A DNA stretch of 64,000 nt from Aequorivita lipolytica. Lineage in GTDB: Bacteria > Bacteroidota > Bacteroidia > Flavobacteriales > Flavobacteriaceae. Every line of letters begins with the position of its first letter. The first letter of the stretch is position 1. Made by a program: the position numbers and the translations under genes. Below the pieces are notes generated by a model. It was given only the letters and a program-made list of their open reading frames with translations. It did no database searches and had not been told where the DNA came from. The stretch covers positions 62,001-126,000 of the forward strand of contig NZ_VORU01000004.1 in the NCBI RefSeq assembly GCF_007997135.1. Direction: 5' to 3'. Of this stretch, positions 3,354 to 50,088 are shown piece by piece.

Positions 3354-3396
3354 TGATAATTATCATAGCAATTAATAAAAGGTACCGATACTTTAA
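3354..3396 (+). promoter_or_regulatory. FNR-like box TGATAATTATCA with promoter for the P-type ATPase
   Basis: A perfect 12-bp palindrome at 3354-3365. The first base of a -7-like element (TACTTTAA, two mismatches to TAnnTTTG) lies exactly 35 bp after the first base of the box, at 3389-3396. The start codon is at 3430. The same geometry recurs at seven other TGAY-N4-RTCA boxes here. No good -7 element lies at 35 bp toward the divergent TSUP gene, though a weak match at 36 bp leaves shared control possible. Confidence 0.6.
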
Positions 3397-3429
3397 CGGG
3401 TAATTAATTAGTGCTATAAACCTAAATAT

Positions 3430-5970
3430 ATGGCGATAGAAAATTTTGATATTCAAGGTCTGTTAGATTCTGAAGTTTTAGCTTCACGGAAAAAATTTGG
3501 TGTAAACGTTCTGGAATCCAAGAAAAAGAACCCATTTTTTGAAGCAATAAAAGGGCTGCTAAAAGAGCCAATGGTCATTTTGTTGTTGGTTGCCGCTACG
3601 CTGTATTTTTTCACAGGAAATACGGGTGACGGAATTTTTCTTGCAGCGGCAATTCTTTTGGTTGCTGCAATATCGCTCTATCAAGATGCTAAAACGCATG
3701 ATGCATTAGAAAAACTCAAGGAACTTTCACAACCAAATTGTAAGGTAATCCGGAACGGTACGGTTGTGGAAATTAAAAGCCAAGAAGTTGTAGTTGGCGA
3801 TTTTTTGATGGTAGAGGAAGGTTCAACCATTGTTGCAGATGGCACTATTGTGCACTCCAATGACTTCTCAGTAAACGAATCCATCTTAACGGGAGAATCC
3901 TTTTCAGTGGAAAAAAACGCCTCTTCAAAAGACAACAAAATTTTTATGGGCACCCAAGTGGGCGGCGGGCTTGCCATTGCAGAAATAACCGCAGTGGGTA
4001 ATCAAACAAAGGTTGGGAAAATAGGGAAAAGCATTGAAGACATTTCTTCTGAAAGATCTACGCTTGAACTCCAAATAAACAATTTTGTAAAAAAGATGGT
4101 AATTGCGGGAGCGGTTATTTTTCTATTGGTTTGGGGAATCAACTATTACAATTCTGAAGACGTTTTAGACAGTCTTTTGAAGGCGCTCACACTTGCAATG
4201 AGTGTTTTGCCAGAGGAAATTCCTGTAGCCTTTACCACTTTTATGGCCATTGGCGCTTGGCGGCTTATGAATATGGGCGTCATCGTAAAACAGATGAAAA
4301 CCGTAGAATCCTTGGGCAGCGCTACTGTAATTTGCGTTGATAAAACTGGGACGATTACCGAGAATAAAATGCGTCTCGATAAGATTTTTACATTGGAAAC
4401 AGATAGAATAACTTCGGTTGAAGAAACGCTTTCCGAGAGTGAAAAATTGCTAATTACTACAGCAATGTGGGCCAGTGAGCCCATTCCTTTTGATACTATG
4501 GAACAGTCGCTGCACAAGTTTTATAAGAAAATAGTGAAAATTGACGAAAGGCCAAATTTTAAAATGGTGCACGAATATCCCTTGGGTGGCAAACCTCCAA
4601 TGATGACCCATATTTTTAAAAATGAATCGGGCAATCGCATAATCGCCGCTAAAGGTGCGCCAGAAGCTTTGATGGCAGTTTCAGATTTAAGCGGGGAGCA
4701 AAAGGAAATTCTAAAACAAAAAATCAGCATTTTGGCTGCGGACGGATATCGTGTTTTGGGAGTGGGAATTTCAAAGTTTGAAGGTACAGATTGGCCAAAG
4801 AAGCAGCAAGATTTTAATTTTGAATTTAAGGGGTTGGTAGCTTTTTATGATCCACCGAAGGAAAATATTTCAAAGGTGTTTCAAGATTTTTATAATGCAG
4901 GAATAGCCGTTAAAATTATTACTGGTGATATTGCTGAAACTACCATGGCAATTGCAAAAAAGGTAAATTTCAAAGGTTCAGGGGAAGTGATTTCGGGTGA
5001 TGAGCTTATAAATTTGGATGATTCTGAACTCCAAAAAATTACTTCAGAAAAAAACATTTTTGCCAGGATGTTTCCCGAAGCCAAACTCAAAATAATAAAC
5101 GCCCTCAAAGCGCAAGGTCACATAGTTGCAATGACCGGAGATGGCGTAAACGATGGTCCCGCGCTAAAAGCTGCCAATATTGGTGTGGCAATGGGAAAGA
5201 AGGGAACCGAGATTGCTAAACAATCTGCGTCGCTTGTTCTGGTGGATGATGATCTTTCCAAAATGGTGGAGGCGGTGGCCATGGGCCGAAAAATATATTC
5301 AAACCTCAAAAAGGCTATTCAATATATTATTTCAATCCACATTCCAATTATACTTATCGTTTTTATTCCCTTGGTTTTAGGATGGGTATATCCCAATATT
5401 TTTACGCCCGTACACGTAATTTTGTTGGAATTGATCATGGGTCCAACTTGCTCGATAGTCTATGAAAACGAACCTTTGGAAAAGGATTCTATGCTTCAAA
5501 AGCCGAGACCTTTTTCAAGTACATTTTTTAATTGGAGTGAACTTTTCACAAGTATTATACAAGGGCTGGTAATTACTGCAGGTGTGCTTACTGTTTATCA
5601 GTTGGCGGTCAATAATGGTGCTAATGAAGAAGTTACCCGCACTATGGTGTTTACGGCTCTTATAACTGCAAATATTGTATTGACGTTTGTAAATCGTTCT
5701 TTTATTTACTCCATTTTTACCACTTTTAGATATAAAAACAGATTGGTGCCTATTATGATTGGAATTACCATAGGCATCACTTTGTCACTTCTTTTGGTGC
5801 CACCTTTCACCGAATTCTTTGAATTTGAAAGACTTGGAATTAACCAGATTGGCATCAGCGTTGGGATTGGCGTTTTAAGTGCGTTATGGTATGAAACTGT
5901 GAAGTGGTGGAAACGCAATCACATTTCCAAAAAATCTCTTATCAATGAGCAAAACGATTTAAGTTATTGA
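3430..5970 (+). CDS. Cation-translocating P-type ATPase (P2-type, Ca2+-ATPase-like)
   Basis: An 846-residue P-type ATPase. In order it has a cation-ATPase N-terminal region, the actuator motif LTGES (about 153-157), the M4 motif PEEIP (261-265), the phosphorylation site DKTGT with Asp304, the nucleotide domain with KGAPEAL, the hinge TGDGVND (569-575), and C-terminal membrane helices after about 620. It couples ATP hydrolysis to export of a cation across the inner membrane. The M4 sequence PEEIP differs from PEGLP of classical SERCA-type pumps, and there are no N-terminal heavy-metal domains. I therefore leave the ion open, with Ca2+ or Mn2+ most likely. It has its own promoter with an FNR-like box at 3354. 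The next gene starts 86 bp downstream behind another box. Confidence 0.92.
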   Translation: MAIENFDIQGLLDSEVLASRKKFGVNVLESKKKNPFFEAIKGLLKEPMVILLLVAATLYFFTGNTGDGIFLAAAILLVAAISLYQDAKTHDALEKLKELSQPNCKVIRNGTVVEIKSQEVVVGDFLMVEEGSTIVADGTIVHSNDFSVNESILTGESFSVEKNASSKDNKIFMGTQVGGGLAIAEITAVGNQTKVGKIGKSIEDISSERSTLELQINNFVKKMVIAGAVIFLLVWGINYYNSEDVLDSLLKALTLAMSVLPEEIPVAFTTFMAIGAWRLMNMGVIVKQMKTVESLGSATVICVDKTGTITENKMRLDKIFTLETDRITSVEETLSESEKLLITTAMWASEPIPFDTMEQSLHKFYKKIVKIDERPNFKMVHEYPLGGKPPMMTHIFKNESGNRIIAAKGAPEALMAVSDLSGEQKEILKQKISILAADGYRVLGVGISKFEGTDWPKKQQDFNFEFKGLVAFYDPPKENISKVFQDFYNAGIAVKIITGDIAETTMAIAKKVNFKGSGEVISGDELINLDDSELQKITSEKNIFARMFPEAKLKIINALKAQGHIVAMTGDGVNDGPALKAANIGVAMGKKGTEIAKQSASLVLVDDDLSKMVEAVAMGRKIYSNLKKAIQYIISIHIPIILIVFIPLVLGWVYPNIFTPVHVILLELIMGPTCSIVYENEPLEKDSMLQKPRPFSSTFFNWSELFTSIIQGLVITAGVLTVYQLAVNNGANEEVTRTMVFTALITANIVLTFVNRSFIYSIFTTFRYKNRLVPIMIGITIGITLSLLLVPPFTEFFEFERLGINQIGISVGIGVLSALWYETVKWWKRNHISKKSLINEQNDLSY

Positions 5971-5984
5971 TAAACAGTATTAAC

Positions 5985-6027
5985 TGATTTTCGTCATTGT
6001 GAAGAATTTATTTCTAATTTAATTTCG
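5985..6027 (+). promoter_or_regulatory. FNR-like box TGATTTTCGTCA with -7-like element before the outer-membrane protein gene
   Basis: The box TGAT-TTTC-GTCA lies at 5985-5996. TAATTTCG (one mismatch to TAnnTTTG) begins 35 bp from the first base of the box, at 6020-6027. The start codon of the downstream gene is at 6056. The box begins 15 bp after the ATPase stop codon, so the outer-membrane protein is likely transcribed separately. Confidence 0.55.
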
Positions 6028-6055
6028 AATGGCGTTTAACTAAAAACCAAACATC

Positions 6056-6634
6056 ATGAAAAAGTACAATTTTTTACTTATAACAGTAATTCTACTAATT
6101 TCATTTACTGTGAAATCACAGGAAAAGTGGTCGGTAGAGTTTAGACCTGGTCTCAGTTTTCCTACGAGTGATGTGGGTAATACCGACACTAAAATCGGTT
6201 TTGGCTTTGAGATTACGGGTGCCTATAAAATTATGCCTCATTTGGCCGTTTACGCGGGTTGGGGTTGGAACCAGTTTAAAGGTGAAGATCGTCTTTCAAT
6301 AGAAGATATTACTTTTGAAGAGACGGGATATACTTTTGGGTTTCAACTTATACGTCCCATCGGCACTTCAGCATTTTCTTACATCGGGAGCGCCGGTGCG
6401 ATATATAACCACATAGAATTAGAAAATAACGCTGGAGACATAACCGCAGATACCGGCCACGGATTTGGATGGCAAGTAGCAGCTGGAGTTGATTATGAAT
6501 TTGCGCCGAACCTCGCTTTGCGACCAATGTTTAAGTACCGCTCTCTTTCAAGAGATTTGGAAATTGCCAATGTTTCTACCGAACTAAAGCTCAATTACAT
6601 TTCATTCGGTATTGGCCTAGCTTGGGATTTTTGA
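6056..6634 (+). CDS. Outer-membrane beta-barrel protein (small OmpA-like/porin-family barrel)
   Basis: 192 residues. A signal peptide ends near KSQEKW at about residue 22. Alternating hydrophobic strands with aromatic girdle residues follow: SVEFRPGLSFP, IGFGFEITGAYKI, LAVYAGWGWNQF, YTFGFQLIRPI, GFGWQVAAGVDYEF. The protein ends with ISFGIGLAWDF, a C-terminal Phe typical of outer-membrane barrels. Eight strands would fit the length. The specific role is unknown; such small barrels are often stress-induced. An FNR-like box sits 60-70 bp upstream, so its expression may follow the same signal as the universal stress proteins in this window. Confidence 0.8.
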   Translation: MKKYNFLLITVILLISFTVKSQEKWSVEFRPGLSFPTSDVGNTDTKIGFGFEITGAYKIMPHLAVYAGWGWNQFKGEDRLSIEDITFEETGYTFGFQLIRPIGTSAFSYIGSAGAIYNHIELENNAGDITADTGHGFGWQVAAGVDYEFAPNLALRPMFKYRSLSRDLEIANVSTELKLNYISFGIGLAWDF

Positions 6635-6714
6635 TTGTGTAACTGATCGTAAAATTGATTTTTCCTATTCTAGGTTTCTTTACAATTTTTTGAATTCACC
6701 AAAAGCTTTCTCAA

Positions 6715-7803
6715 ATGAAAATTGCATTTATCATCCTTCTCTTTATTCACGGTCTTATTCATTTGATGGGATTTTTAAAGGCTTTTGGCTTTGCTGAAAT
6801 CCCACAACTTTCGCAAAATTTTTCAAAACCGGAAGGTCTTTTATGGCTAGTGGTTACTTTGGTGTTTGTGACTGTAGGAGTACTTTTTCTGATGAAAAAC
6901 AATCTTTGGTTTTGGATGGCAATAGCAGCGGTAATATTTTCGCAGGTTTTGATTATTATGAATTGGCAGGATGCAAAATTCGGCACCATCGCAAATGTGA
7001 TTGTTTTGGTTATTGCAATCATGGCAATAGCTGGATGGAACTTTGAAAGAAAATACAAACAGGATGTAGCCCAATCTTTTGAAAACGTAACCATTTCCGA
7101 AGAAACAATTTCCGAAAAAGATATTGAAAACCTACCCGTTCCCGTTCAAAAATACCTGAAATACGTCGGGGTGCTTGGCAAGCCCAAAATAGAAACTGCC
7201 AAAGCTATTTTTAAAGGTGAAATGCGTGAAAAGGGAAAAGATTGGTTTGCTTTCACTTCGGAACAGTATAACTTTTTTGAGAATCCGACCCGTTTGTTTT
7301 TTATGAAGGCAATTTTCAAGGGACTGCCTACCCAAGGATACCATTATTACAAAGATGAAGAGGCTTCTATGCTTATAAAACTTTTATCGGTTTTCCCAGT
7401 TGTGGATATAATAGAGCCTGAAATGTTCAAAACAGAAACGGTAACCTATTTTAATGATATGTGTCTTTTTGCTCCAGCCGCATTAATTGATGAAAAAATT
7501 AAATGGCAAACTATTGATGATAAATCCGTAAAAGCAACCTACACAAACAAGAAAGCGACTATTTCGGCTATTTTGTATTTCAACGAAAATGATCAACTAA
7601 TTAATTTTATTTCAGAAGATAGGATGGAAGTGAATTCCAATCAAAGTGTTCCGTTTTCGACTCCAGTAACAAAATACGGTACTATCAACGGCTATAATTT
7701 ACCCGTTGCTGCTGATGCTGTTTATCAATTTCCCGATGGCGATTTTGTTTATGGGAAGTTTTATTTGCTGGATGTTCAGTATAATGTAAAAAATTTGGAT
7801 TGA
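6715..7803 (+). CDS. DUF6544-like membrane-anchored protein
   Basis: 362 residues. Three or four membrane helices occupy residues 1-105 (starting MKIAFIILLFIHGLIHLMGF). A soluble domain follows with VPVQKYLKYVGVLGKP, an F/W-rich segment WFAFTSEQYNFFENPTR and a C-terminal beta-rich part ending YGKFYLLDVQYNV. The pattern 'V..YL.Y.GV.GKP......F.G....W..F.....' matches what I recall of DUF6544. No enzyme activity is known to me for that family. It stands alone between the outer-membrane protein (80 bp upstream) and the convergent L,D-transpeptidase. I saw no regulator box upstream. The DUF assignment is from memory. Confidence 0.72.
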   Translation: MKIAFIILLFIHGLIHLMGFLKAFGFAEIPQLSQNFSKPEGLLWLVVTLVFVTVGVLFLMKNNLWFWMAIAAVIFSQVLIIMNWQDAKFGTIANVIVLVIAIMAIAGWNFERKYKQDVAQSFENVTISEETISEKDIENLPVPVQKYLKYVGVLGKPKIETAKAIFKGEMREKGKDWFAFTSEQYNFFENPTRLFFMKAIFKGLPTQGYHYYKDEEASMLIKLLSVFPVVDIIEPEMFKTETVTYFNDMCLFAPAALIDEKIKWQTIDDKSVKATYTNKKATISAILYFNENDQLINFISEDRMEVNSNQSVPFSTPVTKYGTINGYNLPVAADAVYQFPDGDFVYGKFYLLDVQYNVKNLD

Positions 7804-7914: not shown

Positions 7915-8946
7915 TTAGTTGTTTAAATCTCCACAATCGCAAACGTTTATAGATTTTCCATCAATAGCTTTAAATGCAGATTCAATACTTTCTTTTCTAT
8001 ATGTTTCATTTTCAAAACCTGGATAAATATTTTCAAATTGAATGTCTTTTCCTTCATTATCTTTTCCCGTTAAATCGTACCGGATAACCACTTTTGTGCC
8101 TAATGGAGCATAGTAATATACAAACCATGCATCAGATTCCCGCAAGCCGATACAGCCATTGGAGTAGGCTTTGCCCAACGTTTCCAAATTTGTTGTGGGG
8201 TGAATAAGTTGTCCAAGACGGCGACCGTCAATTTCAGGCTCTATCCAAGGGATGGCTGGAAGGTTAGTGACCTTTTTATCATCCCGATTTGTTTTGTAAT
8301 ACCTTTGGTTGTCCTTAGGATTGATGAACCATGGTTTTTTATTAACTCTAACTATTTTTCCTATGCCGGGTTTTGTACGCAAATCTACTTCACCTTTTGC
8401 CATTTTTAAGTAACGTTTGTTATTCTGTCCAGCCCTAACCGGAAACTTTTGGATTACCTTTCCATCTTCAATAATGCGAAGTCTAAACTCTGGAATATTA
8501 ATATCCAGATAGGTGTTTTCCATAACTTCTCTTATTTTTTGGGTTTTTAGAGAATCTGGAATGAGCAGAGTTTGTCCTTCACTAAGTGCATTTAATGATT
8601 GGGAATCTTCATTAAAAATCCCCTTATCCATTAGGTAATAATAATCTGTATGGGCCAGAGTGTCCAAAATCCAATTGTTATTATGAACAATTATATACTC
8701 ATCAATAAGATAATTGTGGGTTTGATTATGCTCCGCTACAATGCTGTCCATCCATTTAAAGTAGGAGCGAATAGGAACATCTTTATTGACAACTATTTCA
8801 ATTGGTGTTGAAGTTTTTTCTTGTTTTAAACTGTCAGTTTCAACCACCTCATTTCCGTTATTTGATTTCTGTTCATTATTGAATTTGTTGTTGTTTAAGC
8901 AACTTACAAATACGAAAGAAAAAATAAACAGTAAAATATTTTTCAT
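7915..8946 (-). CDS. L,D-transpeptidase (YkuD) lipoprotein
   Basis: 343 residues. The lipobox VSC-L puts the lipidated Cys at residue 16. An Asn/Glu-rich linker follows, then a region with a possible LysM-like segment (LNALSEGQTLLIPDSL). The YkuD catalytic domain covers about 145-290, with the His of QLIHP (249) and the catalytic Cys265 in SNGCIGLRE. YkuD enzymes make 3-3 crosslinks in peptidoglycan or attach lipoproteins to it, so the protein acts in the periplasm. The usual signature SHGCIRL reads SNGCIGL here: the first His is Asn and the Arg is shifted (GLRE), which is common in Bacteroidota variants. A TGAC-N4-GTCA box with a consensus -7 element on this strand lies about 145-190 bp upstream, so the 5' leader would be long. 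Confidence 0.88.
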   Translation of the reverse strand: MKNILLFIFSFVFVSCLNNNKFNNEQKSNNGNEVVETDSLKQEKTSTPIEIVVNKDVPIRSYFKWMDSIVAEHNQTHNYLIDEYIIVHNNNWILDTLAHTDYYYLMDKGIFNEDSQSLNALSEGQTLLIPDSLKTQKIREVMENTYLDINIPEFRLRIIEDGKVIQKFPVRAGQNNKRYLKMAKGEVDLRTKPGIGKIVRVNKKPWFINPKDNQRYYKTNRDDKKVTNLPAIPWIEPEIDGRRLGQLIHPTTNLETLGKAYSNGCIGLRESDAWFVYYYAPLGTKVVIRYDLTGKDNEGKDIQFENIYPGFENETYRKESIESAFKAIDGKSINVCDCGDLNN

Positions 8947-9090: not shown

Positions 9091-9133
9091 CAAACGTAAG
9101 AAGTTAATTGCCAAAATGGTATGACATTAGTCA
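9091..9133 (-). promoter_or_regulatory. FNR-like box TGACATTAGTCA with consensus -7 element reading toward the L,D-transpeptidase
   Basis: A perfect palindrome at 9122-9133. On the minus strand TACGTTTG (a full match to TAnnTTTG) begins at 9098, again exactly 35 bp from the first base of the box. The plus strand has no -7 element at that spacing, so the box is assigned to the L,D-transpeptidase and not to mlaE, although it sits in their shared 313-bp gap. The rest of this gap (8947-9259) shows nothing else recognisable. Confidence 0.65.
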
Positions 9134-9259
9134 TCTTTGTAATTATTTCTTTCCGCAATTATGGCCTTAGGCACACAATTGACCAAAACCTATTTTGCTG
9201 ATTTAAATCATACATCTTAAACTAAATCAATACTATATTTGATTTTTTCCTTTTACGAA

Positions 9260-10042
9260 ATGAATAAAGCAAACTCCATATTATTAAATACTAAATCATT
9301 TTTTGCTGAAATAGGCGATATGACTTTATTTGCTGGACGCTTTTTTAGGGAAGTGTTCAGTCCGCCATTTGAATTTAAGGAACTGCTTCGCCAATGTTAT
9401 AATATGGGCAATCGTTCTTTTTTATTGGTGAGTGTTACTGGGTTTATTTTAGGACTTGTGTTCACGCTACAGTCGCGACCCACTTTGATGCAGTTTGGTG
9501 CACAATCCTGGATGGCCTCCATGGTGAGTCTTTCCATTGTTCGCGAAATTGGGCCTGTAATAATAGCTCTTATCTGTGCTGGGCGAATTGGTTCGGGAAT
9601 TGGTGCAGAGCTCGGCTCTATGCGCGTTACAGAACAAATTGATGCAATGGAAGTTTCTGGCACCAACCCATTTAAATATTTGGTTATTACCCGTGTTGTG
9701 GCCACAACATTAATGTTGCCATTGTTGATAATTATGGGCGATGCCATCGCTCTTTTGGGTTCTGCCATTGTTGAAAACTTAAAAGGTGATGTTTCCTTTT
9801 TGCTCTATTTCAATCAGGTTTTTGATGCCTTAAAGTTCACCGATTTACTACCTGCAACGGTAAAATCTGTTTTCTTTGGCTTTGCCATTGGGATAGTGGG
9901 ATGTTATAAGGGATATAATTGTGCCAAAGGAACGGTAGGGGTAGGAGAGGCGTCAAATTCTGCTGTGGTCACTATTTCGATGCTGCTGTTTATTATTGAT
10001 TTTATCGCCGTTTTTGTAACCGATATATTTTTTGAAATATAA
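9260..10042 (+). CDS. mlaE: MlaE-family ABC permease
   Basis: 260 residues from the ATG at 9260; an in-frame TTG at 9239 could extend it by seven residues but is less likely. Five or six membrane helices are visible, with family motifs GFILGLVFTLQ, REIGPVIIALICAGRIGSG and TEQIDAMEVSGTNP (the conserved E-x-D-A-x-x-x-x-G-x-x-P coupling motif of MlaE/TGD1 permeases). MlaE with MlaF and MlaD moves phospholipids between the outer and inner membranes to keep outer-membrane asymmetry. The next gene's ATG directly abuts the stop codon, so mlaE-mlaF-mlaD form one operon. MlaB, MlaC and MlaA homologues are not in this window. Confidence 0.93.
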   Translation: MNKANSILLNTKSFFAEIGDMTLFAGRFFREVFSPPFEFKELLRQCYNMGNRSFLLVSVTGFILGLVFTLQSRPTLMQFGAQSWMASMVSLSIVREIGPVIIALICAGRIGSGIGAELGSMRVTEQIDAMEVSGTNPFKYLVITRVVATTLMLPLLIIMGDAIALLGSAIVENLKGDVSFLLYFNQVFDALKFTDLLPATVKSVFFGFAIGIVGCYKGYNCAKGTVGVGEASNSAVVTISMLLFIIDFIAVFVTDIFFEI

Positions 10043-11833: not shown

Positions 11834-12466
11834 ATGCTCAATTATTTAAAAGAAAATTTCACCAATATTTTTGAAGACGCCTTAATTGAGGAGATAATAG
11901 AAGTTGGCACCTTAAAAGAAGTAAAAGAAGGCGAAAAATTAATAGAAATAGGTGATTATGTGCGGTCTATGCCTTTGCTGATTTCTGGGGCGATAAAAAT
12001 TTTGAGGGAAGACGAAGATGGCGACGAATTATTGCTCTATTTTTTAGAACGTGGCGACACCTGCGCAATGACTTTAACTTGCTGTTTGGGCCAGACCAAA
12101 AGTGAAATACGCGCTGTTGCAGAACTTGACACAACATTGATTATGATACCCATCCAAAAAATGGAAGAGTGGACGGGCAAGTACAAGAGCTGGCGCAATT
12201 TTGTGTTCCAAAGTTACCACGAACGCTTAACGGAAATGCTTGAAACCATTGATAGTATTGCTTTTTATAATATGGACGAGCGCTTGGTAAAATACCTTCA
12301 GAACAAAAAAAAGGTGACTAATGATTCCTTGATTAATTCTACTCATCAAGAAATAGCTTATGAACTTCATACTTCACGTGTTGTGGTTTCGCGTTTATTA
12401 AAAAAACTGGAATCACTTGGTAAAATTGAACTTTATCGAAATAGTATTAAGATAGTTTCGCTTTAA
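11834..12466 (+). CDS. Crp/Fnr family transcriptional regulator
   Basis: 210 residues. The cyclic-nucleotide-type beta-roll sensor is at about 20-115, the dimer helix at about 120-145 and the winged helix-turn-helix at about 150-210. The recognition helix SRVVVSRLLKKLE (181-193) keeps Ser186 and Arg187 of FNR-type helices, but the position of FNR Glu209 is Val183, so its DNA target should differ from TGA-type half-sites. There is no N-terminal FNR iron-sulfur Cys cluster. A central CAMTLTCC stretch (Cys77, Cys83, Cys84) might instead sense redox state. A GTAAC-N4-GTTAC palindrome begins 38 bp after its stop codon, in front of the peroxiredoxin gene. I infer that this protein binds the GTAAC class of boxes. 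Confidence 0.9.
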   Translation: MLNYLKENFTNIFEDALIEEIIEVGTLKEVKEGEKLIEIGDYVRSMPLLISGAIKILREDEDGDELLLYFLERGDTCAMTLTCCLGQTKSEIRAVAELDTTLIMIPIQKMEEWTGKYKSWRNFVFQSYHERLTEMLETIDSIAFYNMDERLVKYLQNKKKVTNDSLINSTHQEIAYELHTSRVVVSRLLKKLESLGKIELYRNSIKIVSL

Positions 12467-17116: not shown

Positions 17117-17159
17117 TGATTATTATCATTTTTCAACCCTTTTCATTGAAGTAACTTAG
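17117..17159 (+). promoter_or_regulatory. Downstream FNR-like box TGATTATTATCA and -7-like element before SQR
   Basis: TGAT-TATT-ATCA at 17117-17128. TAACTTAG (one mismatch to TAnnTTTG) begins 35 bp from the first base of the box, at 17152. The SQR ATG is at 17179. This gives SQR two stacked promoters, one of each box class, so sulfide oxidation may answer to both regulators. Confidence 0.55.
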
Positions 17160-17178: not shown

Positions 17179-18636
17179 ATGGCTAAAATTGTAATATTGG
17201 GTGCGGGAATCTCTGGGCACGTTGCCGCATCGCACCTACGCAGAAAATTGGATAAAACCCACGAAGTAGTTGTGGTTTCGCCCAACAGGAATTATCAATG
17301 GATTCCCTCCAATATATGGGTGGGCATTGGCCGAATGAAGTCCAAGGAAATTCTTTTTCCGCTAGCACCTTTGTATAAAAAAAAGGGGATTGGTTTTAAG
17401 CAAGCTAAAGTAACATCCTTTTATCCCGAAGGCGATATAAACGAAGCTAAACCTTATGTGTTAGCTGAATATGTTGTGGGAGAAGAGAAAGGCAGACAAG
17501 AAAAAATAACCTACGATTATCTCATAAACGCTACGGGCCCTAAGCTTAATTTTGAAGCTACAGAAGGGCTAAATCCTGGAACTAATAAAGCATATTCTGT
17601 TTGTACATATACCCACGCAGATCACGCCAATGAAGGTTTGCAAAGCCTAATTGAAGAAATGAAACAAGGAAAGGAAGCTCGAATCGTAATAGGTACAGGC
17701 CACGCAAAAGCCACTTGCCAAGGAGCTGCTTTTGAATATATCTTGAATGTGGAACAAGAACTTCGCCGACAAAAGGTTCGCGATAAGGCAAAAATTACTT
17801 GGATTTCCAATGAATACGAATTAGGAGATTTTGGAATGGACGGAATGTTGCTAAGCTATGGAAGCAACATAATGAAATCTCACGAAATGGTGGAAATGGT
17901 TTTTGAAGACCGCGGTATCGATTGGATTCTTGGCGCAGGCGTAAACAAAATTGAAGACGGACTTGCTCATTATGAAACTTTGAGTGGTGAGCAAAATAGC
18001 ATTGAATATGATTTTGCAATGTTAATTCCATCTTTCTCCGGACACGGATTTAAGGCTTTCGACAAAAATAATCAAGACATCACCGAAAAACTCTTTAAAG
18101 GTTTTATGATTGTTGATGCGGACTACAGTCCAAAACCTTATGAAGAATGGACAGTACAAGATTGGCCTGAAACCTATCAAAACCCAAACTATAAAAACAT
18201 TTTTGCGCCGGGAATAGCCTTTGCACCACCACACAGTATTTCCAAACCTCGTAAAAGTCCGAACGGAACAGAGATCTTTCCTGCTCCGCCAAGAACTGGA
18301 ATGCCATCTGGAATAACCGCAAAATTAGTAGCAGATAATATTATAGACAGCATTAAAAACAAAAATGAATCTTTACATCATAAAGGTTCTATGGGCAATA
18401 TGGGCGCAGCCTGCATCGCTTCCGCTGGGTTTGGGATGACCAAGGGTAGTGGTGTAAGCATAACAACGTTTCCTATAGTCCCAGATTATAAAAAATACCC
18501 AGATACCCAAGGCAGGAAGTTGGGCAAAACTTTTGGCGAGATCGGTCTTGCAGGCCATTGGCTGAAATTAATGCTACACTACGCCTTTATTTACAAAGCC
18601 AAAATGAAACCTTTTTGGTATTTAATACCTGAATAA
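17179..18636 (+). CDS. sqr: Sulfide:quinone oxidoreductase-like flavoprotein
   Basis: 485 residues. The FAD-binding GAGISG (8-13) opens a two-dinucleotide-binding-domain flavoprotein. Three Cys sit where SQR proteins have their redox and trisulfide Cys: Cys142 (YSVCTYTHA), Cys180 (ATCQGAAFEY) and Cys412 (GAACIASAGFGM). The C-terminus has two amphipathic or hydrophobic stretches (GHWLKLMLHYAFIY), as expected of a monotopic membrane protein. SQR oxidises sulfide to a persulfide and passes electrons to quinone; the CstB-like enzyme would take the persulfide on. It carries two regulator boxes in tandem upstream. The 46-residue gene downstream may belong to the same unit. Other flavocytochrome-like FCSD enzymes are possible but less likely. 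Confidence 0.88.
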   Translation: MAKIVILGAGISGHVAASHLRRKLDKTHEVVVVSPNRNYQWIPSNIWVGIGRMKSKEILFPLAPLYKKKGIGFKQAKVTSFYPEGDINEAKPYVLAEYVVGEEKGRQEKITYDYLINATGPKLNFEATEGLNPGTNKAYSVCTYTHADHANEGLQSLIEEMKQGKEARIVIGTGHAKATCQGAAFEYILNVEQELRRQKVRDKAKITWISNEYELGDFGMDGMLLSYGSNIMKSHEMVEMVFEDRGIDWILGAGVNKIEDGLAHYETLSGEQNSIEYDFAMLIPSFSGHGFKAFDKNNQDITEKLFKGFMIVDADYSPKPYEEWTVQDWPETYQNPNYKNIFAPGIAFAPPHSISKPRKSPNGTEIFPAPPRTGMPSGITAKLVADNIIDSIKNKNESLHHKGSMGNMGAACIASAGFGMTKGSGVSITTFPIVPDYKKYPDTQGRKLGKTFGEIGLAGHWLKLMLHYAFIYKAKMKPFWYLIPE

Positions 18637-24974: not shown

Positions 24975-24975
24975 T

Positions 24976-41872: not shown

Positions 41873-41915
41873 TGACTTTAATCATTTTAAAATTCACAAA
41901 TTCGGAATATATTTG
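41873..41915 (+). promoter_or_regulatory. FNR-like box TGACTTTAATCA with consensus -7 element before HPF-USP
   Basis: TGAC-TTTA-ATCA at 41873-41884. TATATTTG, a full match to TAnnTTTG, starts 35 bp from the first base of the box, at 41908. The HPF start codon is at 41942. This is one of the cleanest examples of the arrangement. Confidence 0.7.
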
Positions 41916-41941: not shown

Positions 41942-42241
41942 ATGACTATAAACATCCAATACGTGAAAATGCCCACCAGTGAGGCGATGAACGAATATGT
42001 AGAAAAGAAGCTGAAAAAACTTGCTGAAAAATATGAATGGCTAATTAGAGCTGAGGTAAGTTTTAAGTTGGAAAACAATGTTTACGGTAAAGGCAATATC
42101 TGTGAAATGGAACTGAGCCTTCCAGGGCCTAAAATTTTCGCAACATCGAAAGAAGCAACGTTTGAAGCGGCCGCAAAAGAAACTATTTCTGATTTGGAAA
42201 AGCAGCTTAAAAAACGAAAAGCAAAATTTACTACTCATTAA
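41942..42241 (+). CDS. hpf: HPF/RaiA-family ribosome hibernation factor (short form)
   Basis: 99 residues: one S30AE/YfiA domain with the usual order MTINIQYVKMPTSEAMNEYV, KKLKKLAEKY, then a beta-strand hairpin and a basic C-terminal helix (EKQLKKRKAKF). Short HPF binds the decoding centre of the 30S subunit and promotes inactive 100S ribosomes or protects idle ribosomes. A universal stress protein gene follows 12 bp later, so the two are co-transcribed from the box-promoter at 41873. This joins translation arrest and stress proteins in one regulon. Confidence 0.9.
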   Translation: MTINIQYVKMPTSEAMNEYVEKKLKKLAEKYEWLIRAEVSFKLENNVYGKGNICEMELSLPGPKIFATSKEATFEAAAKETISDLEKQLKKRKAKFTTH

Positions 42242-42252: not shown

Positions 42253-43089
42253 ATGAAAAAAATATTAGTTCCCGTAGATTTCTCTAAACATTCTGAATAT
42301 GCTATGGAAGTAGCGGCTAAAATTGCCAAAAAACAAAATGCTGAAATAGTTGCGGTGCATATGATGGGCCTTAGCGATGCGGTTGTAACACGAGATGAAA
42401 GCAAAGAAGCTTTTGAAGCAATGTTTTACATGAAACTTGCCGAAAAACGCTTTACTGAATTTCTTGACAAAGATTATCTGGAGGGAATTAAAGTTACCGA
42501 CACTGTGCACAATTATAAAATTTTTGGTGAACTCAACGAATTGGCACTTGAGTTTAAAGCAGATTTGATTGTAATGGGATCTCACGGAAGCTCAGGTTTA
42601 AAGGAAGTTTTTGTAGGAAGTAATACAGAAAAAGTAGTGCGTACGTCCGAAATCCCGGTTTTAGTAATAAAGCACCGCCATGAAAATTTTAATCCAGAGC
42701 TTGGAGTTTTTGCTTGCGACTTTTTAGAAAATGCAGTGGGCCCGTATAAGCGCGCGCAGAAAATGTTTGACGCATTGGGAATTAACATGCAATTGCTTTT
42801 CGTGAACCTTGCAGGCGATTTCCGCAGCACGCGCGAAATAGAAAAACGAATTCTCAACTTTTTGAAAATCGCAGGAGACACAAATCCGTTGGATAGTTTG
42901 AACAAAGTGGTTCAGTACAATGAATATACTGTGGAAGCTGGAATCTTCGGCTACAGCCAAGTAAGCAGTGCAGACATTATATCACTACCAACACAAGGGC
43001 GCCAAGGCTTAGCTCATTTCTTCAGTGGGAGTATTGGTGAAGATGTGGTAAATCATTCAGATTTGCCGGTGATGACATTTAAAGTTTAG
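42253..43089 (+). CDS. Universal stress protein, tandem Usp domains
   Basis: 278 residues, two Usp folds in tandem. The first domain opens MKKILVPVDFSKHSEYAMEV and has the nucleotide motif VMGSHGSSGLKEVFVGS (G-2x-G-9x-G-S) near 115. The second domain (about 150-278) is degenerate, with an ISLPTQGRQGLAHFFSGS stretch at its end. Usp proteins bind ATP or AMP and help cells survive starvation, oxygen limitation and redox stress, but the biochemical role is unclear. It is co-transcribed with hpf (12 bp gap). A terminator at 43118-43160 separates it from the convergent deoD. Confidence 0.92.
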   Translation: MKKILVPVDFSKHSEYAMEVAAKIAKKQNAEIVAVHMMGLSDAVVTRDESKEAFEAMFYMKLAEKRFTEFLDKDYLEGIKVTDTVHNYKIFGELNELALEFKADLIVMGSHGSSGLKEVFVGSNTEKVVRTSEIPVLVIKHRHENFNPELGVFACDFLENAVGPYKRAQKMFDALGINMQLLFVNLAGDFRSTREIEKRILNFLKIAGDTNPLDSLNKVVQYNEYTVEAGIFGYSQVSSADIISLPTQGRQGLAHFFSGSIGEDVVNHSDLPVMTFKV

Positions 43090-43117
43090 TTAATTGCTAT
43101 CGACATCAATTAACGAT

Positions 43118-44817: not shown

Positions 44818-44823
44818 TTTATT

Positions 44824-45849: not shown

Positions 45850-45919
45850 AATGTTGGGGGATTTTTATTTGTAAATTTAAGCAAACAATTTTAAGCAGGC
45901 AGGCAGATGGTTTATGGAT

Positions 45920-46324
45920 TTAATCTTTCAGGAGAACTTTCAGTTTTGAAAGCATAATAACTTCACTTTTGTTCTTCCCTGAAAATGAACTAGCAATGGC
46001 GTTTGCGGTTTTCCAAATAAGTTGTTTTCGTTCTTTGGTGAAAAGTTTTGGGTATTCTTTATTATAATCGGCAAAACTTTCAAAGCAGTCGTTTGCGTCA
46101 AGCTGCTCGTAATCAAACCAGTCAAAGACCACTTCAATCTGGTATGCGGCATCGGTATGAAAGGGATCTTCATATTCGTCCAAGTTTTTCCATTGTTCTG
46201 CTACAATATTTTTCAATGCGTCATATTCTTCTTTCCGCACGATTTTATCGGCCGCAGCGATGGAATAAAAAAGCTCGCCCATCTTTTGGTAAAACAGCAG
46301 TTGCGGTTTGTCCACGGTTCCCAT
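45920..46324 (-). CDS. TerB-like helical protein (tentative)
   Basis: 134 residues, all-helical by appearance. LLFYQKMGELFYSIAAADK followed by IVRKEEYDALKNIV resembles the TerB/DjlA-type fold ('LFYSIAAADG.I...E...L'), with an Asp-rich middle (FDWFDYEQLDANDCFESF). TerB domains bind divalent metals near membranes. It lacks a signal peptide. It diverges from the histidine kinase gene across 110 bp, and the FNR-like box there has a well-spaced -7 element on both strands, so this protein is probably co-regulated with the two-component system. Confidence 0.66.
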   Translation of the reverse strand: MGTVDKPQLLFYQKMGELFYSIAAADKIVRKEEYDALKNIVAEQWKNLDEYEDPFHTDAAYQIEVVFDWFDYEQLDANDCFESFADYNKEYPKLFTKERKQLIWKTANAIASSFSGKNKSEVIMLSKLKVLLKD

Positions 46325-46354
46325 AATTATATAGTTTAATGATTTTTAATATTG

Positions 46355-46397
46355 TAAAACTAAGTTCATTTTTTCTGAAATTTTATGATATAAATCA
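46355..46397 (-). promoter_or_regulatory. Shared FNR-like box TGATATAAATCA, minus-strand promoter toward the TerB-like gene
   Basis: The palindrome at 46386-46397 also serves the minus strand: TAGTTTTA (one mismatch to TAnnTTTG) begins at 46362, exactly 35 bp from the first base of the box read on this strand. The TerB-like start codon is at 46324. Confidence 0.58.
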
Positions 46398-46430
46398 GTT
46401 AACAAAAACTGTTTAAAATCGTTACTTTTG
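46386..46430 (+). promoter_or_regulatory. Shared FNR-like box TGATATAAATCA with consensus -7 element before the histidine kinase
   Basis: TGAT-ATAA-ATCA at 46386-46397. TACTTTTG, a full match to TAnnTTTG, is at 46423-46430. Here the spacing is 37 bp, the single exception to 35. The start codon is at 46435, so the transcript would be nearly leaderless. If the receiver-CRP protein binds this class of box, the kinase-regulator operon controls itself. Confidence 0.62.
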
Positions 46431-46434
46431 GGGA

Positions 46435-47670
46435 ATGAAGGTTTTCGAGGAAAAAAAGGGAAATATTTTTAAAATTCTCTCTGAGGCAATTTCAGAAGGC
46501 ATTGTTATCGTTAATGCAAAACAAGAGATTGTAACATCAAACGAGGCTGCAGATATCATGTTCGGCTATGATCCCAAAGAACTTTTTGGACAAAATTTGA
46601 ACGTTCTTATTCCACGCGGATATAGGGAAAACCACCACCATCAGGTTGACGAATTTTTGGATAAAAGTGACCCTCGCCAGATGGGCCATGGACGCGATCT
46701 TTATGGACAGCGCAAGAATGGCAGTGTTTTTCCTGTGGAAGCTGGCTTAAATCCTTTTGAAATCTACGGCAGTAAGTATGTAATGGCGCTTGTTACCGAC
46801 ATTTCCGTTCGTAAAAATCAAGAGAAAGAAATTTTAGAGCTCAACTTATATTTGGAACAAAAAATTGAAGAACGTACCAGGGAGCTTAATAAAACTATTA
46901 AAGTTTTACAGGAAGAAGTTGCAAAACGTAAAGAAGCGGAGCATAAAATGAAGGAATCGCTGCGCAAGGAGCGCGAGCTTAATGAATTGAAAACCAAGTT
47001 TCTTTCACTGGTTTCGCACGAGTTTAAAACGCCTTTGAGTGGGATTCTAACTTCTGCCACGCTCGCTGGAAAATATACTGAGACAGAACAACAGGATAAG
47101 AGGGAAAAGCATTTAAAGACTATTCAAAGTAAAGTAAAATACTTGAACAACATTTTAAACGATTTTCTTTCCATAGAACGATTAGAGTCTGGCAAGGCCA
47201 CTTATAAATTTGATACATTTCCGCTTAGCAAAGTAGTGAATGAGGTTATATATAATTCAAATATGCTTTTAAAAGATGGACAAAGAATTAATTATCCCAA
47301 CAATATTGATGACATCACAGTAAATTTTGATGAAAAAATTCTGGAGCTTTCATTAACCAATCTAATAAATAATGCCATTAAATATTCACCGGAATACACA
47401 ACAATTGACGTGGCAGTTGTGAATAAAAACGAAACTATAGTTATACAAATAAAAGATGAAGGGATGGGCATCCCACAAAAAGAGCAGAAATATATTTTTA
47501 ACAGGTATTTCCGTGCTGAAAATGCACTTTTAGATCAAGGCACTGGCATTGGTCTAAACATAGTAAAAAGCCACCTGGAAAGTCTGGGCGGCAAAATTAC
47601 CTTTGAAAGTGAAGAGGGTAAGGGTAGCGCATTTACAATTTCTTTCTCCACTAAAAACAATACAAACTAA
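46435..47670 (+). CDS. PAS-domain sensor histidine kinase, FixL-like PAS
   Basis: 411 residues with no membrane segment, so a soluble sensor. The PAS domain covers about 10-125, a coiled-coil 128-185, the dimerisation/phosphorylation domain has SHEFKTPLSG with His195, and the ATPase domain has LTNLINNAIKYS (N box), KDEGMGIP (G1) and GTGIGLNIVK (G2). Within the PAS domain His67 (YRENH) and Arg87 (GHGRDLYGQRKNGS) fall at the positions of the FixL haem ligand and the oxygen-gating Arg. Many haem-free PAS domains keep a similar pattern, so haem binding is inferred. The regulator gene abuts its stop codon. Its promoter holds an FNR-like box. Confidence 0.92.
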   Translation: MKVFEEKKGNIFKILSEAISEGIVIVNAKQEIVTSNEAADIMFGYDPKELFGQNLNVLIPRGYRENHHHQVDEFLDKSDPRQMGHGRDLYGQRKNGSVFPVEAGLNPFEIYGSKYVMALVTDISVRKNQEKEILELNLYLEQKIEERTRELNKTIKVLQEEVAKRKEAEHKMKESLRKERELNELKTKFLSLVSHEFKTPLSGILTSATLAGKYTETEQQDKREKHLKTIQSKVKYLNNILNDFLSIERLESGKATYKFDTFPLSKVVNEVIYNSNMLLKDGQRINYPNNIDDITVNFDEKILELSLTNLINNAIKYSPEYTTIDVAVVNKNETIVIQIKDEGMGIPQKEQKYIFNRYFRAENALLDQGTGIGLNIVKSHLESLGGKITFESEEGKGSAFTISFSTKNNTN

Positions 47671-48723
47671 ATGAAGACAATACTTCTTATTGAAGACGAT
47701 ATCGCATTAAGAGAAAATACCGCTGAACTTTTGGAGCTTGCGGGCTACACGGTCTATACCGCTCCCAACGGTAAGGTTGGCATTGAAAAAGCAAAAAAGG
47801 AAAATCCGAATATCATTATCTGTGATATTATGATGCCAGAAATAGACGGATACGGAGTTCTAGAAGCGGTGGCGCTAGAGGAGAGCACAAAACACATTCC
47901 CTTTATATTTCTTTCTGCTAAAACAGAACACAAAGAAATTAGAAAAGGAATGGACATGGGCGCTGATGATTACCTCACAAAACCCTTTGATGAGGAAGAA
48001 TTGTTAAGTGCCGTGGAAAGCCGTTTGGCAAAAGCAAAAATTTTGGAAATGCGTAAGAATGACCAAGATCAAACAACTGTTGTAGATGAAGAAAATCTCC
48101 AAAACCTAAATCAACTGAAAAACTTTTTTTGTGATGAAGGTGAAGTGTCCACATATAAAAAAGGAGAAAACATATACCGAAAAGGGGATCACTCTAACAA
48201 CATGTTTCTTATTTTAAAAGGCGTGGTGAAAACACACACGATGGAAGCCAACGCAAAAGAGCTCATTACTGGACTCTATAAAGCAGATGATTTTTTAGGG
48301 TTCACCTCTTTTGATGATAACATTCCTTACAATGAAACCGCCACAGCCGTTGAAGAAACGGAAGTTGTAGGCATTTCAAAAACATATGTAAAGGATATTT
48401 TGAAAAAAAGCCAGGATGTCTCTTTGGAACTGATGAATTTATTAACCAATAATCTTTCTGAAATAAAACAGCAATTGGTTAAAATGGCCTACAGTTCTGT
48501 GCGCAAAAAAACAGCGGCGACTATTCTTCAATTTAGTGAAATTATGAATAAAAAGCCCAACGCGCCACTTCGGATTTCTCGAAATGATCTTGCTACAACC
48601 GCCGGTATAGCAACCGAAAGCCTAATTAGAACACTTTCAGATTTTAAGAGAGATGGGCTTATTGAAATTGAAGGACGCGACATTCGCATTATAGATATGG
48701 AAAGCCTGCGCGAGATTGAATAG
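47671..48723 (+). CDS. Response regulator fused to a CRP/FNR domain (receiver-cNMP-HTH)
   Basis: 350 residues. The receiver domain (1-120) has Asp9/Asp10, phosphorylated Asp52 (ICDIMMPEIDG), Ser82 and Lys104. A linker (120-145), a CRP-type beta-roll (about 150-240), a dimer helix and a Crp-type winged HTH (about 278-342) follow. The recognition helix ATESLIRTLSDFKRDG (314-329) aligns with FNR TVETISRLLGRFQKSG, keeping the Glu (316) and Arg (320) that read TGA half-sites. The beta-roll lacks the cAMP phosphate-binding motif RxA, so it may not bind a nucleotide. This is a FixJ receiver joined to a FixK-type output in one protein. I infer that it binds the TGAY-N4-RTCA boxes. Confidence 0.93.
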   Translation: MKTILLIEDDIALRENTAELLELAGYTVYTAPNGKVGIEKAKKENPNIIICDIMMPEIDGYGVLEAVALEESTKHIPFIFLSAKTEHKEIRKGMDMGADDYLTKPFDEEELLSAVESRLAKAKILEMRKNDQDQTTVVDEENLQNLNQLKNFFCDEGEVSTYKKGENIYRKGDHSNNMFLILKGVVKTHTMEANAKELITGLYKADDFLGFTSFDDNIPYNETATAVEETEVVGISKTYVKDILKKSQDVSLELMNLLTNNLSEIKQQLVKMAYSSVRKKTAATILQFSEIMNKKPNAPLRISRNDLATTAGIATESLIRTLSDFKRDGLIEIEGRDIRIIDMESLREIE

Positions 48724-48784
48724 TACTTTAGAAGCCAATTTATTTCTAGAATGAACAATCAATCAGCAACATTTTTTCCATAAC

Positions 48785-48827
48785 TGACTTTTATCATTTT
48801 CTGTCCCAACCATTACAAATATTTTTG
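48785..48827 (+). promoter_or_regulatory. FNR-like box TGACTTTTATCA with consensus -7 element before usp
   Basis: TGAC-TTTT-ATCA at 48785-48796. TATTTTTG (full match to TAnnTTTG) starts 35 bp from the first base of the box, at 48820. The start codon is at 48847. The box is 62 bp after the regulator gene's stop codon, so this usp has its own promoter. Confidence 0.7.
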
Positions 48828-48846
48828 TCGGTAAGATTATGATGCA

Positions 48847-49689
48847 ATGATGACTATATTAATCCCGACGGATTTTTCTGAAAATTCACACAATGCCATT
48901 AGGTATGCACTGAACTATTTTGCCGATATTCCTGTAAATTTTTATATTCTTCATGTTTCGCTCAAAAACTCACTTTACAAAGATGATAAACATGATGCCG
49001 AAGAGCTTTTTGAATTTTCCGAAAACAAACATGTATTACAAGATCCTTTAATAATGCTAAAGGAAGAAATTAAAATCTGTAAGCTTTTATCCAAAAATAG
49101 CAACCATCATTTTTATGCGCTTCACGAAAATGTGCTATTGGTTGAAGCCATTAGAAAACACGTTGAAGAAAAAGAAATCGATTATATTTTGATGGGGACC
49201 AAAGGAGCCTCAAAGACAAACCGTAACGAAATAGGCAGCAACACTAGTGAAGTTATTACTAAGGTGAAATGCCCCGTTTTTGTGATTCCAGAAAATGCTT
49301 TGTTCAATACTATAAAGAATATTGCTTTTTTAACTGATTACAACTGCATATTTCGCAACAAGGTTATCACTAAGCTTTCAGACTCATTAAACTTACAACT
49401 TGCCGCGCTTAGGGTACTTCATATTCGTTCCCAAAATGTTTTGCTTAGTGCATCTCAAACAGATAATAAAGGGTTTCTACACTATTTCTTTAGAGAGACA
49501 AAGCACAGTTTTCACTATTTAGAGAATAAAAATATTGAAACAGGAATACAGGATTTCGTAGAGACATGGGAAATAGATATGATTGCCATTGTAGCTAAAA
49601 ACCTAAATTTTGTTCAGCGCCTTCTTTTTAAACCAATTGTTGATTCCACTTACCAATCAGAAGTTCCATTTTTAATACTTCACGAGTAA
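48847..49689 (+). CDS. Universal stress protein, tandem Usp domains
   Basis: 280 residues (a second ATG follows at once, so 279 is also possible). It opens TILIPTDFSENSHNAIRYAL. The first-domain nucleotide motif reads LMGTKGASKTNRNEIGSNTS, with the spacing of the ATP-binding Usp class but with Asn-rich substitutions. The second domain (about 155-280) lacks the motif and is divergent. It is the first of four USP genes downstream of the two-component operon, single-transcribed behind an FNR-like box. Other USPs here share about the same length and layout, which suggests paralogues from repeated duplication. Confidence 0.9.
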   Translation: MMTILIPTDFSENSHNAIRYALNYFADIPVNFYILHVSLKNSLYKDDKHDAEELFEFSENKHVLQDPLIMLKEEIKICKLLSKNSNHHFYALHENVLLVEAIRKHVEEKEIDYILMGTKGASKTNRNEIGSNTSEVITKVKCPVFVIPENALFNTIKNIAFLTDYNCIFRNKVITKLSDSLNLQLAALRVLHIRSQNVLLSASQTDNKGFLHYFFRETKHSFHYLENKNIETGIQDFVETWEIDMIAIVAKNLNFVQRLLFKPIVDSTYQSEVPFLILHE

Positions 49690-49736
49690 CTTTTGCCGCT
49701 CGAATTAGTTTTGTAAGTTGAGAAAGAACTAAAACT

Positions 49737-49970
49737 CTAACGAAACTTTTTCTCTCTACCAATTGGATGATCTTCATAAAAATCTTCAAAATCTTTATCA
49801 GTAGCATAATTATCCTTCAGAACTTTTACTACAGAGATAACGAGTAAAACCTGTCCCAAAACCATAAGGTAAAATACCCAGCTAAAAGGAAAATTCATCG
49901 CTGCAAAAATGGTGACTGTCAAGAGTATAAAAGTGGTGATGATAAGGTATGTAATTGCTGAAATTTTCAT
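49737..49970 (-). CDS. Small two-helix membrane protein of unknown function
   Basis: 77 residues: two membrane helices (about 4-24 and 28-50) and a charged cytoplasmic tail, YATDKDFEDFYEDHPIGREK. ATG at 49970. I know no name for the family; similar short proteins occur in Flavobacteriaceae genomes. It is on the minus strand between two universal stress protein genes. It diverges from the next usp; the FNR-like box in that gap has no good -7 element on this strand at 35 bp. Confidence 0.65.
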   Translation of the reverse strand: MKISAITYLIITTFILLTVTIFAAMNFPFSWVFYLMVLGQVLLVISVVKVLKDNYATDKDFEDFYEDHPIGREKKFR

Positions 49971-50045
49971 AAAATTTTTTATTTGAATTTACAAAATATA
50001 ATCAGCGTTTATTCTTAACGATTCCTTAAAAATCAACAAGTTGGA

Positions 50046-50088
50046 TGATATTTGTCATATTTTTTAGCACTGTGTTTTTTTATCTTTA
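50046..50088 (+). promoter_or_regulatory. FNR-like box TGATATTTGTCA with -7-like element before usp
   Basis: TGAT-ATTT-GTCA at 50046-50057. TATCTTTA (one mismatch to TAnnTTTG, the same sequence as in the peroxiredoxin promoter) begins 35 bp from the first base of the box, at 50081. It supports the start at 50114 and excludes the in-frame earlier start at 50045, which lies inside the box. Confidence 0.68.

Follow-up and report, generated by a model that had tools for sequence, protein, structure and literature searches.

In the excerpts of published work on which we draw throughout, the closest described systems come from rhizobia, where FixL with FixJ, or hFixL with FxkR, drives the transcription of fixK, and where in Rhizobium leguminosarum the kinase-driven FixK and the cysteine-bearing FnrN share an anaerobox, TTGAT-N4-ATCAA, at -32 to -34 (PMC7888657). 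The targets of FixK2 in Bradyrhizobium diazoefficiens include fixNOQP, hemN2, a usp gene and Hsp20, its site is a TTGA-type palindrome, and fixK2 is auto-repressed (PMC9104804). In Bacteroidota, the sigma factor recognizes TAnnTTTG at -7 and TTTG near -33, the -33 motif not being found in Flavobacterium johnsoniae (PMC7366714). A meta-regulon study links the CRP/FNR protein of one Flavobacteriales metagenome-assembled genome to carbon sensing, and reports finding no evidence that such proteins control denitrification there (PMC8510549). HcpR, DNR and NnrR motifs are treated in PMC1274295, whose excerpt holds none like the site described below for Bacteroidetes. Here we analyzed a 64-kb stretch of the Aequorivita lipolytica genome, which as a whole we call the window, in which FNR-type palindromes (boxes) stand at a fixed distance of 35 bp before TAnnTTTG promoter elements, and in which a PAS histidine kinase is encoded next to a fusion of a receiver domain with a CRP-type protein (47671-48723). 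To our knowledge, low-oxygen sensing and the switching to cbb3 oxidase and denitrification are little described in Flavobacteriia. As judged by titles and abstract openings among the matches listed, with few subscription journals covered, neither a receiver-CRP fusion nor an FNR regulon of Flavobacteriales or Flavobacteriia was found in the literature. We consider it probable, with good confidence, that the boxes serve TAnnTTTG promoters as class II sites in a low-oxygen and denitrification regulon of the FNR/FixK type, and that they are most likely read by the fusion, with the FixL-like kinase controlling it. The box, spacing, targets, domains, conserved residues and co-occurrence that carry this reading are taken from sequence.

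The original prediction had listed eight boxes and nine box-promoter pairs, with the first base of the box 35 bp ahead of the -7 element in all pairs but one. A motif scan of the window returned all eight boxes at their coordinates, and re-measurement placed eight of the nine pairs at 35 bp and one at 37 bp, with an identical tally of -7 mismatches (none in four pairs, one in four, two in one). A tenth pair had been overlooked: its box, 9199-9210, stands 35 bp ahead of a perfect TATATTTG, upstream of mlaE. The window holds 12 matches to TGAYNNNNRTCA against 3.2 expected, and at least 12 were reached in none of 100 shuffles. Measured against the Bacteroidota TAnnTTTG, the -7 element is perfect in five of the ten pairs, has one mismatch in four and two mismatches in one. 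The base directly 3' of the box is T in all nine pairs at 35 bp and G in the 37-bp pair. The ten pairs are as follows.

3354-3396, + strand: box TGATAATTATCA, 35 bp, -7 element TACTTTAA (two mismatches), before a cation P-type ATPase gene (3430-5970)
5985-6027, + strand: box TGATTTTCGTCA, 35 bp, -7 element TAATTTCG (one mismatch), before an outer-membrane beta-barrel gene (6056-6634)
9091-9133, - strand: box TGACTAATGTCA (9122-9133), 35 bp, perfect -7 element TACGTTTG, before an L,D-transpeptidase gene (7915-8946, - strand)
9199-9241, + strand: box TGATTTAAATCA, 35 bp, perfect -7 element TATATTTG, before mlaE (ATG at 9260)
17117-17159, + strand: box TGATTATTATCA, 35 bp, -7 element TAACTTAG (one mismatch), before an SQR-like flavoprotein gene (17179-18636)
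41873-41915, + strand: box TGACTTTAATCA, 35 bp, perfect -7 element TATATTTG, before hpf (41942-42241) and usp (42253-43089)
46355-46397, - strand: shared box (46386-46397) in the leftward direction, 35 bp, -7 element TAGTTTTA (one mismatch), before a TerB-like gene (45920-46324, - strand)
46386-46430, + strand: the same box in the rightward direction, 37 bp, perfect -7 element TACTTTTG with its end 4 bp from the kinase ATG; presumably a site of autoregulation that is off register
48785-48827, + strand: box TGACTTTTATCA, 35 bp, perfect -7 element TATTTTTG, before usp (48847-49689)
50046-50088, + strand: box TGATATTTGTCA, 35 bp, -7 element TATCTTTA (one mismatch), before a usp array (open reading frame called at 50045-50959)

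By its predicted -7 element, the 3354 site is the weakest member of the set. The usp reading frame called at 50045-50959 must have its real start downstream of the -7 element. The further box matches at 26709, 37981 and 48060 lie within open reading frames and have no + strand -7 element with two or fewer mismatches at 35 bp; a one-mismatch element on the - strand at 48060 was taken as chance and set aside.

The 3.31-Mb genome was then scanned with the reversed pattern as control, the scan that had been named beforehand as the refuting test. The exact box followed at 35 bp by TAnnTTTG occurred nine times, and never in the control. When the gap was left free from 8 to 38 bp (31 values), 13 exact pairs were obtained, nine of them at 35 bp, against three in the control; one mismatch at 35 bp raised the count to 28 against seven. 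Contig C30, which carries the window (326 of 3,313 kb), holds 21 of these 28 one-mismatch sites, 20 of them within C30 67,985-171,377 (about 103 kb). A clustering like that of this segment (the window plus L011-L013) is also seen in the genus genomes G252, G256 and G259, and not in G241. The remaining seven sites lie off C30; four of these places were read, those on C7, C43 and at C27:4255 being left out. The only exact site off C30 is that on C36, upstream of a flavoprotein gene, and the free-gap scan also gave a 36-bp pair on C27. Some of the off-C30 sites may be there by chance.

The same unit recurs around relatives of the receiver-CRP gene. In 80 such loci, with spacings from 12 to 69 bp considered, 160 pairs stand at 35 bp, 13 at 37, six at 36 and at most six at any other distance. 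The 160 pairs are not independent events, because the 80 loci are related to each other. Five scrambled palindromes gave no 35-bp pair in these loci, but they were 5-7 times rarer than the box (152-218 versus 1048 box orientations). Spacings of 45 and 57 bp were considered as a class and rejected, as they fall mostly within the kinase gene or before no open reading frame. The base after the box is T in 98% of 156 distinct 35-bp sites, and a T-rich tract extends through position 17, coinciding with the expected place of the -33 TTTG. The box centre is predicted near -40, which is a class II position, and the class II geometry of the original prediction gains support from a 35-bp unit that passes the genome scan and recurs in relatives. 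Downstream of the 160 sites, a match to hpf occurs 21 times, to the TerB-like gene eight times and to mlaE twice; usp 48847-49689 is the best own match of the following gene at 57 sites and usp 50045-50959 at 17. For the beta-barrel gene 6056-6634, the best match has a 35-bp site upstream in one related locus.

A large part of the regulon is found beyond the window. On C30, boxes precede in the window the cation P-type ATPase, beta-barrel, L,D-transpeptidase, the mlaE row, the SQR-like flavoprotein, hpf with usp, the TerB-like gene and usp genes. The other boxed genes on the contig are those for a cytochrome c (with nosZ, nosL and nosD behind it), further cytochromes c together with COX1-type (NorB-like) subunits, acetyl-CoA hydrolase, a hemerythrin/ScdA protein, a FixI-like P-type ATPase, CcoNO, HemN, an alginate-export-type porin and phosphofructokinase. 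CcoN, CcoO and HemN score above their NCBIfam cut-offs. The SQR-like flavoprotein matches the NCBIfam SQR family far under its cut-off, and the 134-amino-acid TerB-like protein has no Pfam or NCBIfam match. The row starting at mlaE extends to the gene of a 210-amino-acid Crp paralogue. As predicted from these genes, the target set resembles FNR/FixK low-oxygen regulons, and boxes in genomes other than the metagenome-assembled genome mentioned above suggest that denitrification control exists in the order.

The proteins that come into question as sensor and reader in the window are the following.

46435-47670, + strand: PAS histidine kinase (Pfam PAS, HisKA, HATPase_c) with a FixL-like PAS domain
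47671-48723, + strand: receiver-cNMP_binding-HTH_Crp fusion (Pfam), proposed reader of the box
11834-12466, + strand: 210-amino-acid Crp paralogue with recognition helix SRVVVSR, set aside as box reader

PF00027 (cNMP_binding) and PF13545 (HTH_Crp_2) both match the fusion above cut-off, placing it in the CRP/FNR superfamily. Its recognition helix reads ATESLIR, and E316, I319 and R320 are each present in 81 of 81 fusions, giving the Glu and Arg expected of a helix-turn-helix for TGA half-sites; as in CRP/FNR proteins, E316 and R320 presumably make these contacts. The receiver has the acidic pair, phospho-Asp, Ser/Thr and Lys expected of its kind, D52 and S82 being kept in 80 and K104 in 81 of the 81 fusions, which, with a kinase alongside, marks the protein as a response regulator. 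The conserved cysteines of FNR, and so its cysteine cluster, are absent from the 81 fusions, where only C51, in the receiver, is conserved, and the alignment of the fusion to the NCBIfam Fnr profile begins only at model position 37. No solved chain spanning the receiver and CRP parts was present among the best 60 of 216 PDB matches. The kinase adjoins the fusion in 78 of 80 loci, with a box near its start in 60 of the 78. It has the domain set of FixL (PAS, HisKA, HATPase_c) and no hydrophobic stretch, 1.1 being its highest Kyte-Doolittle mean over 19 residues, and the phospho-acceptor H195 is present in 79 of 79 kinases.

We then compared regulators and motifs (exact box, spacing and TAnnTTTG) over an order sample of 246 genomes. 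A near full-length fusion is found in 29 of them, and a near full-length plain protein, that is, one with at least 39% identity to the FNR-like protein L103, in 66 (and in 32 of 40 genomes of a family sample). As raw means uncorrected for genome size, exact motifs number 7.0 in eight fusion-only genomes, 5.2 in 50 plain-only genomes and 11.1 in 16 with both. The means are 3.6 in 39 Weeksella-type genomes, which include five with a second-type fusion, 1.3 in three partial-match genomes and 0.35 in 130 with neither, many of which are small; control means range from 0 to 0.31 over the regulator classes. A near full-length plain protein is absent from all 28 genomes of the genus; 27 of them contain, in a frame of 346-385 amino acids, a match that was taken as the fusion. 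All 27 carry 5-17 exact motifs (controls total 4), and the fusion-less genome G251 carries none. By this genus pattern, G251 included, regulator, targets and boxes are present or absent as a set.

The plain proteins have the helix ATES[CAV]IR or ATETVIR. All 11 close sequences read (L102-L105, L109, L111, L115, L117-L120) have a CxxC close to the N-terminus and a Cys preceding an IP. We take C4, C7 and C106 of L103 to correspond to the cluster ligands 20, 23 and 122 of FNR, on the basis of the NCBIfam Fnr profile, to which the offset is 16; an intervening gap would shift the last one. With three of the four FNR cysteines, the plain protein is possibly an iron-sulphur FNR with one non-Cys ligand. 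That its helix also occurs in the fusion, and that it accompanies the same box in relatives, strengthens the candidacy of the receiver-CRP protein as reader, which the original prediction had put forward.

Target sets were compared at 28 of 28 sites in five plain-only genomes and 36 of 47 sites in seven fusion-only genomes, the unread ones being all sites of G206, four of seven in G167 (three read) and one of three in G102 (two read). Ten of the 28 plain-only sites precede a match to a target of the Aequorivita genome that carries the window (HemN in four genomes, CcoNO in four, Usp in two), as do 15 of the 36 read sites in six fusion-only genomes (HemN in three, CcoNO in three, Usp in four), where the matches additionally include TerB-like, cytochrome c and FTHFS genes. 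The remaining sites precede other genes or no open reading frame, with cupredoxin-cytochrome c proteins among the plain-only ones. These results support the claim that the boxes form one regulon, as the unit passes the genome scan, recurs in relatives and precedes overlapping low-oxygen gene sets. Two side observations concern the plain-only genomes. A multicopper-oxidase-type protein fused to cytochrome c stands under a box in two of them (L132:1305-2750, L147:442-1884) and looks nitrite-reductase-like by eye. At L138:2113-2742 (and at L130 by eye), a small PAS protein (about 209 amino acids) is encoded behind a box; it is closest in the PDB to the Aer receptor, and Pfam found no kinase domain in it.

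The promoter of the kinase departs from the 35-bp register. Among exact sites in the related loci, those that precede the kinase are 13 of 13 at 37 bp, five of six at 36 bp, four of five at 23 bp and none of 160 at 35 bp. When one mismatch was tolerated, a promoter of the kinase was recognized in 36 of 78 loci (25 at 36-37 bp, seven at 23, three at 35 and one at 34). G follows the box at 12 of the 13 sites with 37-bp spacing. In the window, the box of this spacing also serves, at 35 bp, the divergent TerB-like gene that it faces. The exact 23-bp promoters belong to L054, L056, L058 and L059 (three Maribacter and one further member of the Flavobacteriaceae); a box at this distance would be predicted to overlap the core promoter and RNA polymerase. 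In all 22 exact kinase promoters (23, 36 or 37 bp), 3-6 bp separate the end of the -7 element from the start codon (46423-46435 in the window), and because of this the kinase mRNA is possibly nearly leaderless. Such placements, off register or at 23 bp, suggest by inference weak or negative autoregulation.

The fixed spacing might be promoter similarity inherited within one cluster, for example through duplicated usp promoters, and of no functional consequence. The concentration of 21 of 28 one-mismatch sites on one contig, the paralogy of the usp genes and the orthology of many of the 160 sites would fit that explanation. Against it, positions 18-34 between the box and the -7 element are near background composition, the downstream genes are unrelated, and 141 of 246 genomes, from 55 of 82 genera, contain the box-spacing unit, if in some cases as a single chance hit. 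We regard an inherited origin of the spacing as very improbable. It is less remote, though still unlikely, that the boxes are read by another of the genome's own Crp-family proteins (L020, L021 or the 210-amino-acid protein) and that the receiver-CRP pair merely happens to lie in the cluster. The genome has four HTH_Crp_2 matches, one of them under the family cut-off. L020 (195 amino acids, L020:925-1512; helix VETVIR) and L021 (helix PESLSR) keep E..R and could read TGA half-sites, and the motif-free G251 also lacks an L020-type match. On the other side, G251 keeps orthologues of the 210-amino-acid protein (60%) and of L021 (80%) with no exact motif, and these two are unlikely readers for that reason; the 210-amino-acid protein was rejected also for a helix without Glu. 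Furthermore, G030 has two motifs with only a plain FNR-like protein and the 210-amino-acid type, the ATE[ST].IR helix of the plain proteins occurs among the own paralogues only in the fusion, and the fusion is encoded within the box cluster beside a kinase that mostly has a box of its own. The best candidate reader in the genus is most likely the fusion beside the FixL-like PAS kinase, judging from these features. Separately, the E..IR helix of L020 resembles that of the fusion, and L020 might share the boxes. A nitric oxide role for L020, considered on account of a globin-like divergent neighbour (L020:146-553), was dropped, as Pfam has no match in that neighbour.

A further alternative accepts the fusion as reader and concerns the signal: the kinase may sense redox state, a quinone, a flavin or another small molecule instead of O2 through heme. 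Many PAS relatives of this type have no known heme. The Arg that aligns with the distal Arg of FixL (R87) is found in only 54 of 79 kinases, and the His common to both FixL proteins, which aligns with H67, is present in 74 and absent in five; we take these residues to be the distal Arg and the proximal heme His of FixL, a heme-binding kinase inhibited by oxygen. An earlier placement of the heme ligand in the Arg81 column was dropped, as the alignments put the shared FixL His at H67. Opposed to a non-heme signal, entries of FixL or DosP type make up the 13 best of 15 solved PAS relatives in the PDB. As a control, a PAS protein from a related genome found the Aer receptor and no FixL among 35; this control is weak, since it is of another PAS type. 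Heme and oxygen sensing by the kinase PAS domain is plausible on this comparison, and a non-heme signal has, in our judgement, rather less than an even chance. Besides the incomplete distal Arg and the E..R helices of L020 and L021, several observations weigh against the reading of the boxes as sites of the fusion in a low-oxygen regulon with an off-register kinase promoter. The box and spacing are also present in fusion-less genomes, because of which the site alone does not identify its reader. In the fusion-only genome G102, neither of the two read sites precedes a core target. G251 lacks ccoNO in addition to the L020-type Crp, so its loss is one of the whole package and its value as a clean natural knock-out is weakened. 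No promoter was recognized in 42 of the 78 kinase loci, and since three recognized kinase promoters stand at 35 bp and one exact 35-bp site precedes the receiver-CRP gene itself, the off-register rule is not absolute.

For the oxygen or heme signal, phosphotransfer, DNA binding, sign of regulation, transcription starts and direction of evolutionary change, we infer the following course. At low oxygen, the neighbouring FixL-like PAS kinase would phosphorylate D52 of the receiver. A dimer of the fusion would then bind [CA]TGAY-N4-RTCAT about 40 bp upstream of the start, beside the -33 region, and contact RNA polymerase, a contact that the fixed 35-bp distance would serve. Its predicted targets include the cbb3 oxidase, hemN, the FixI-like ATPase, nos and nor genes, cytochromes c, usp and hpf. 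At its own promoter, a box that mostly stands off register by 1-2 bp, or else at 23 bp, would give weak or negative autoregulation. The arrangement would amount to a FixL-FixJ-FixK cascade cut to two proteins and placed on a regulon that a cysteine-bearing FNR-like protein runs in relatives. More specifically, Flavobacteriaceae may have condensed FixL-FixJ-FixK into a kinase and a receiver-FixK/FNR fusion, the pair in Aequorivita replacing the iron-sulphur FNR with box, spacing and core targets unchanged, and its own promoter being set off register (36-37 or 23 bp) for negative feedback. We advance this proposal tentatively, as nearly balanced but leaning slightly to the doubtful side; an evenly balanced view of it was lowered because the three one-mismatch kinase promoters at 35 bp and the 42 of 78 unrecognized ones weaken the feedback step.

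The analysis provides a concrete box, spacing, target list and candidate regulator for the low-oxygen response of Flavobacteriia. It also points to a natural case in which a cysteine-bearing FNR-like protein and a phosphorelay seem to drive the same kind of promoter, and to a precise distance rule on a sigma factor with little-studied activators.

Escherichia coli FNR combines a CRP-type fold and an E..R recognition helix with a TGAT-N4-ATCA core at a class II position. The fusion resembles it in fold, helix and core and in the predicted class II position, and differs in having no iron-sulphur cysteines, in its receiver and in the Bacteroidota TAnnTTTG promoter. Compared with the plain FNR-like protein of Flavobacteriales (e.g., L103:12370-13050), it appears to have the same recognition helix, box and 35-bp spacing with overlapping targets, whereas the plain protein has cysteines, lacks a receiver and is about 33% identical to its CRP part. 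The two seem to share a box in Flavobacteriales much as FixK and FnrN do in the excerpted account of R. leguminosarum; there FxkR is a third protein acting on fixK, whereas the fusion would act directly and, in Aequorivita, without a plain protein. As in the FixLJ-FixK2 system of B. diazoefficiens, so far as its excerpt goes, a FixL-type PAS kinase would stand on top and a CRP/FNR-type activator would serve low-oxygen genes. In that organism a separate FixJ drives fixK2 transcription, while here the receiver lies within the CRP-type protein, and because of this no transcriptional middle step is expected. FixJ consists of a receiver and a LuxR-type helix-turn-helix output. The output of the fusion is cNMP_binding with HTH_Crp_2, which separates it from FixJ; it shares with FixK the absence of a cysteine cluster and, with its receiver fused, is not the stand-alone, FixLJ-controlled protein that FixK is. 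The fusion therefore belongs by its predicted domains to both the CRP/FNR superfamily and the response regulators, is none of FNR, FixJ or FixK as these are defined, and would work like FixLJ-FixK.

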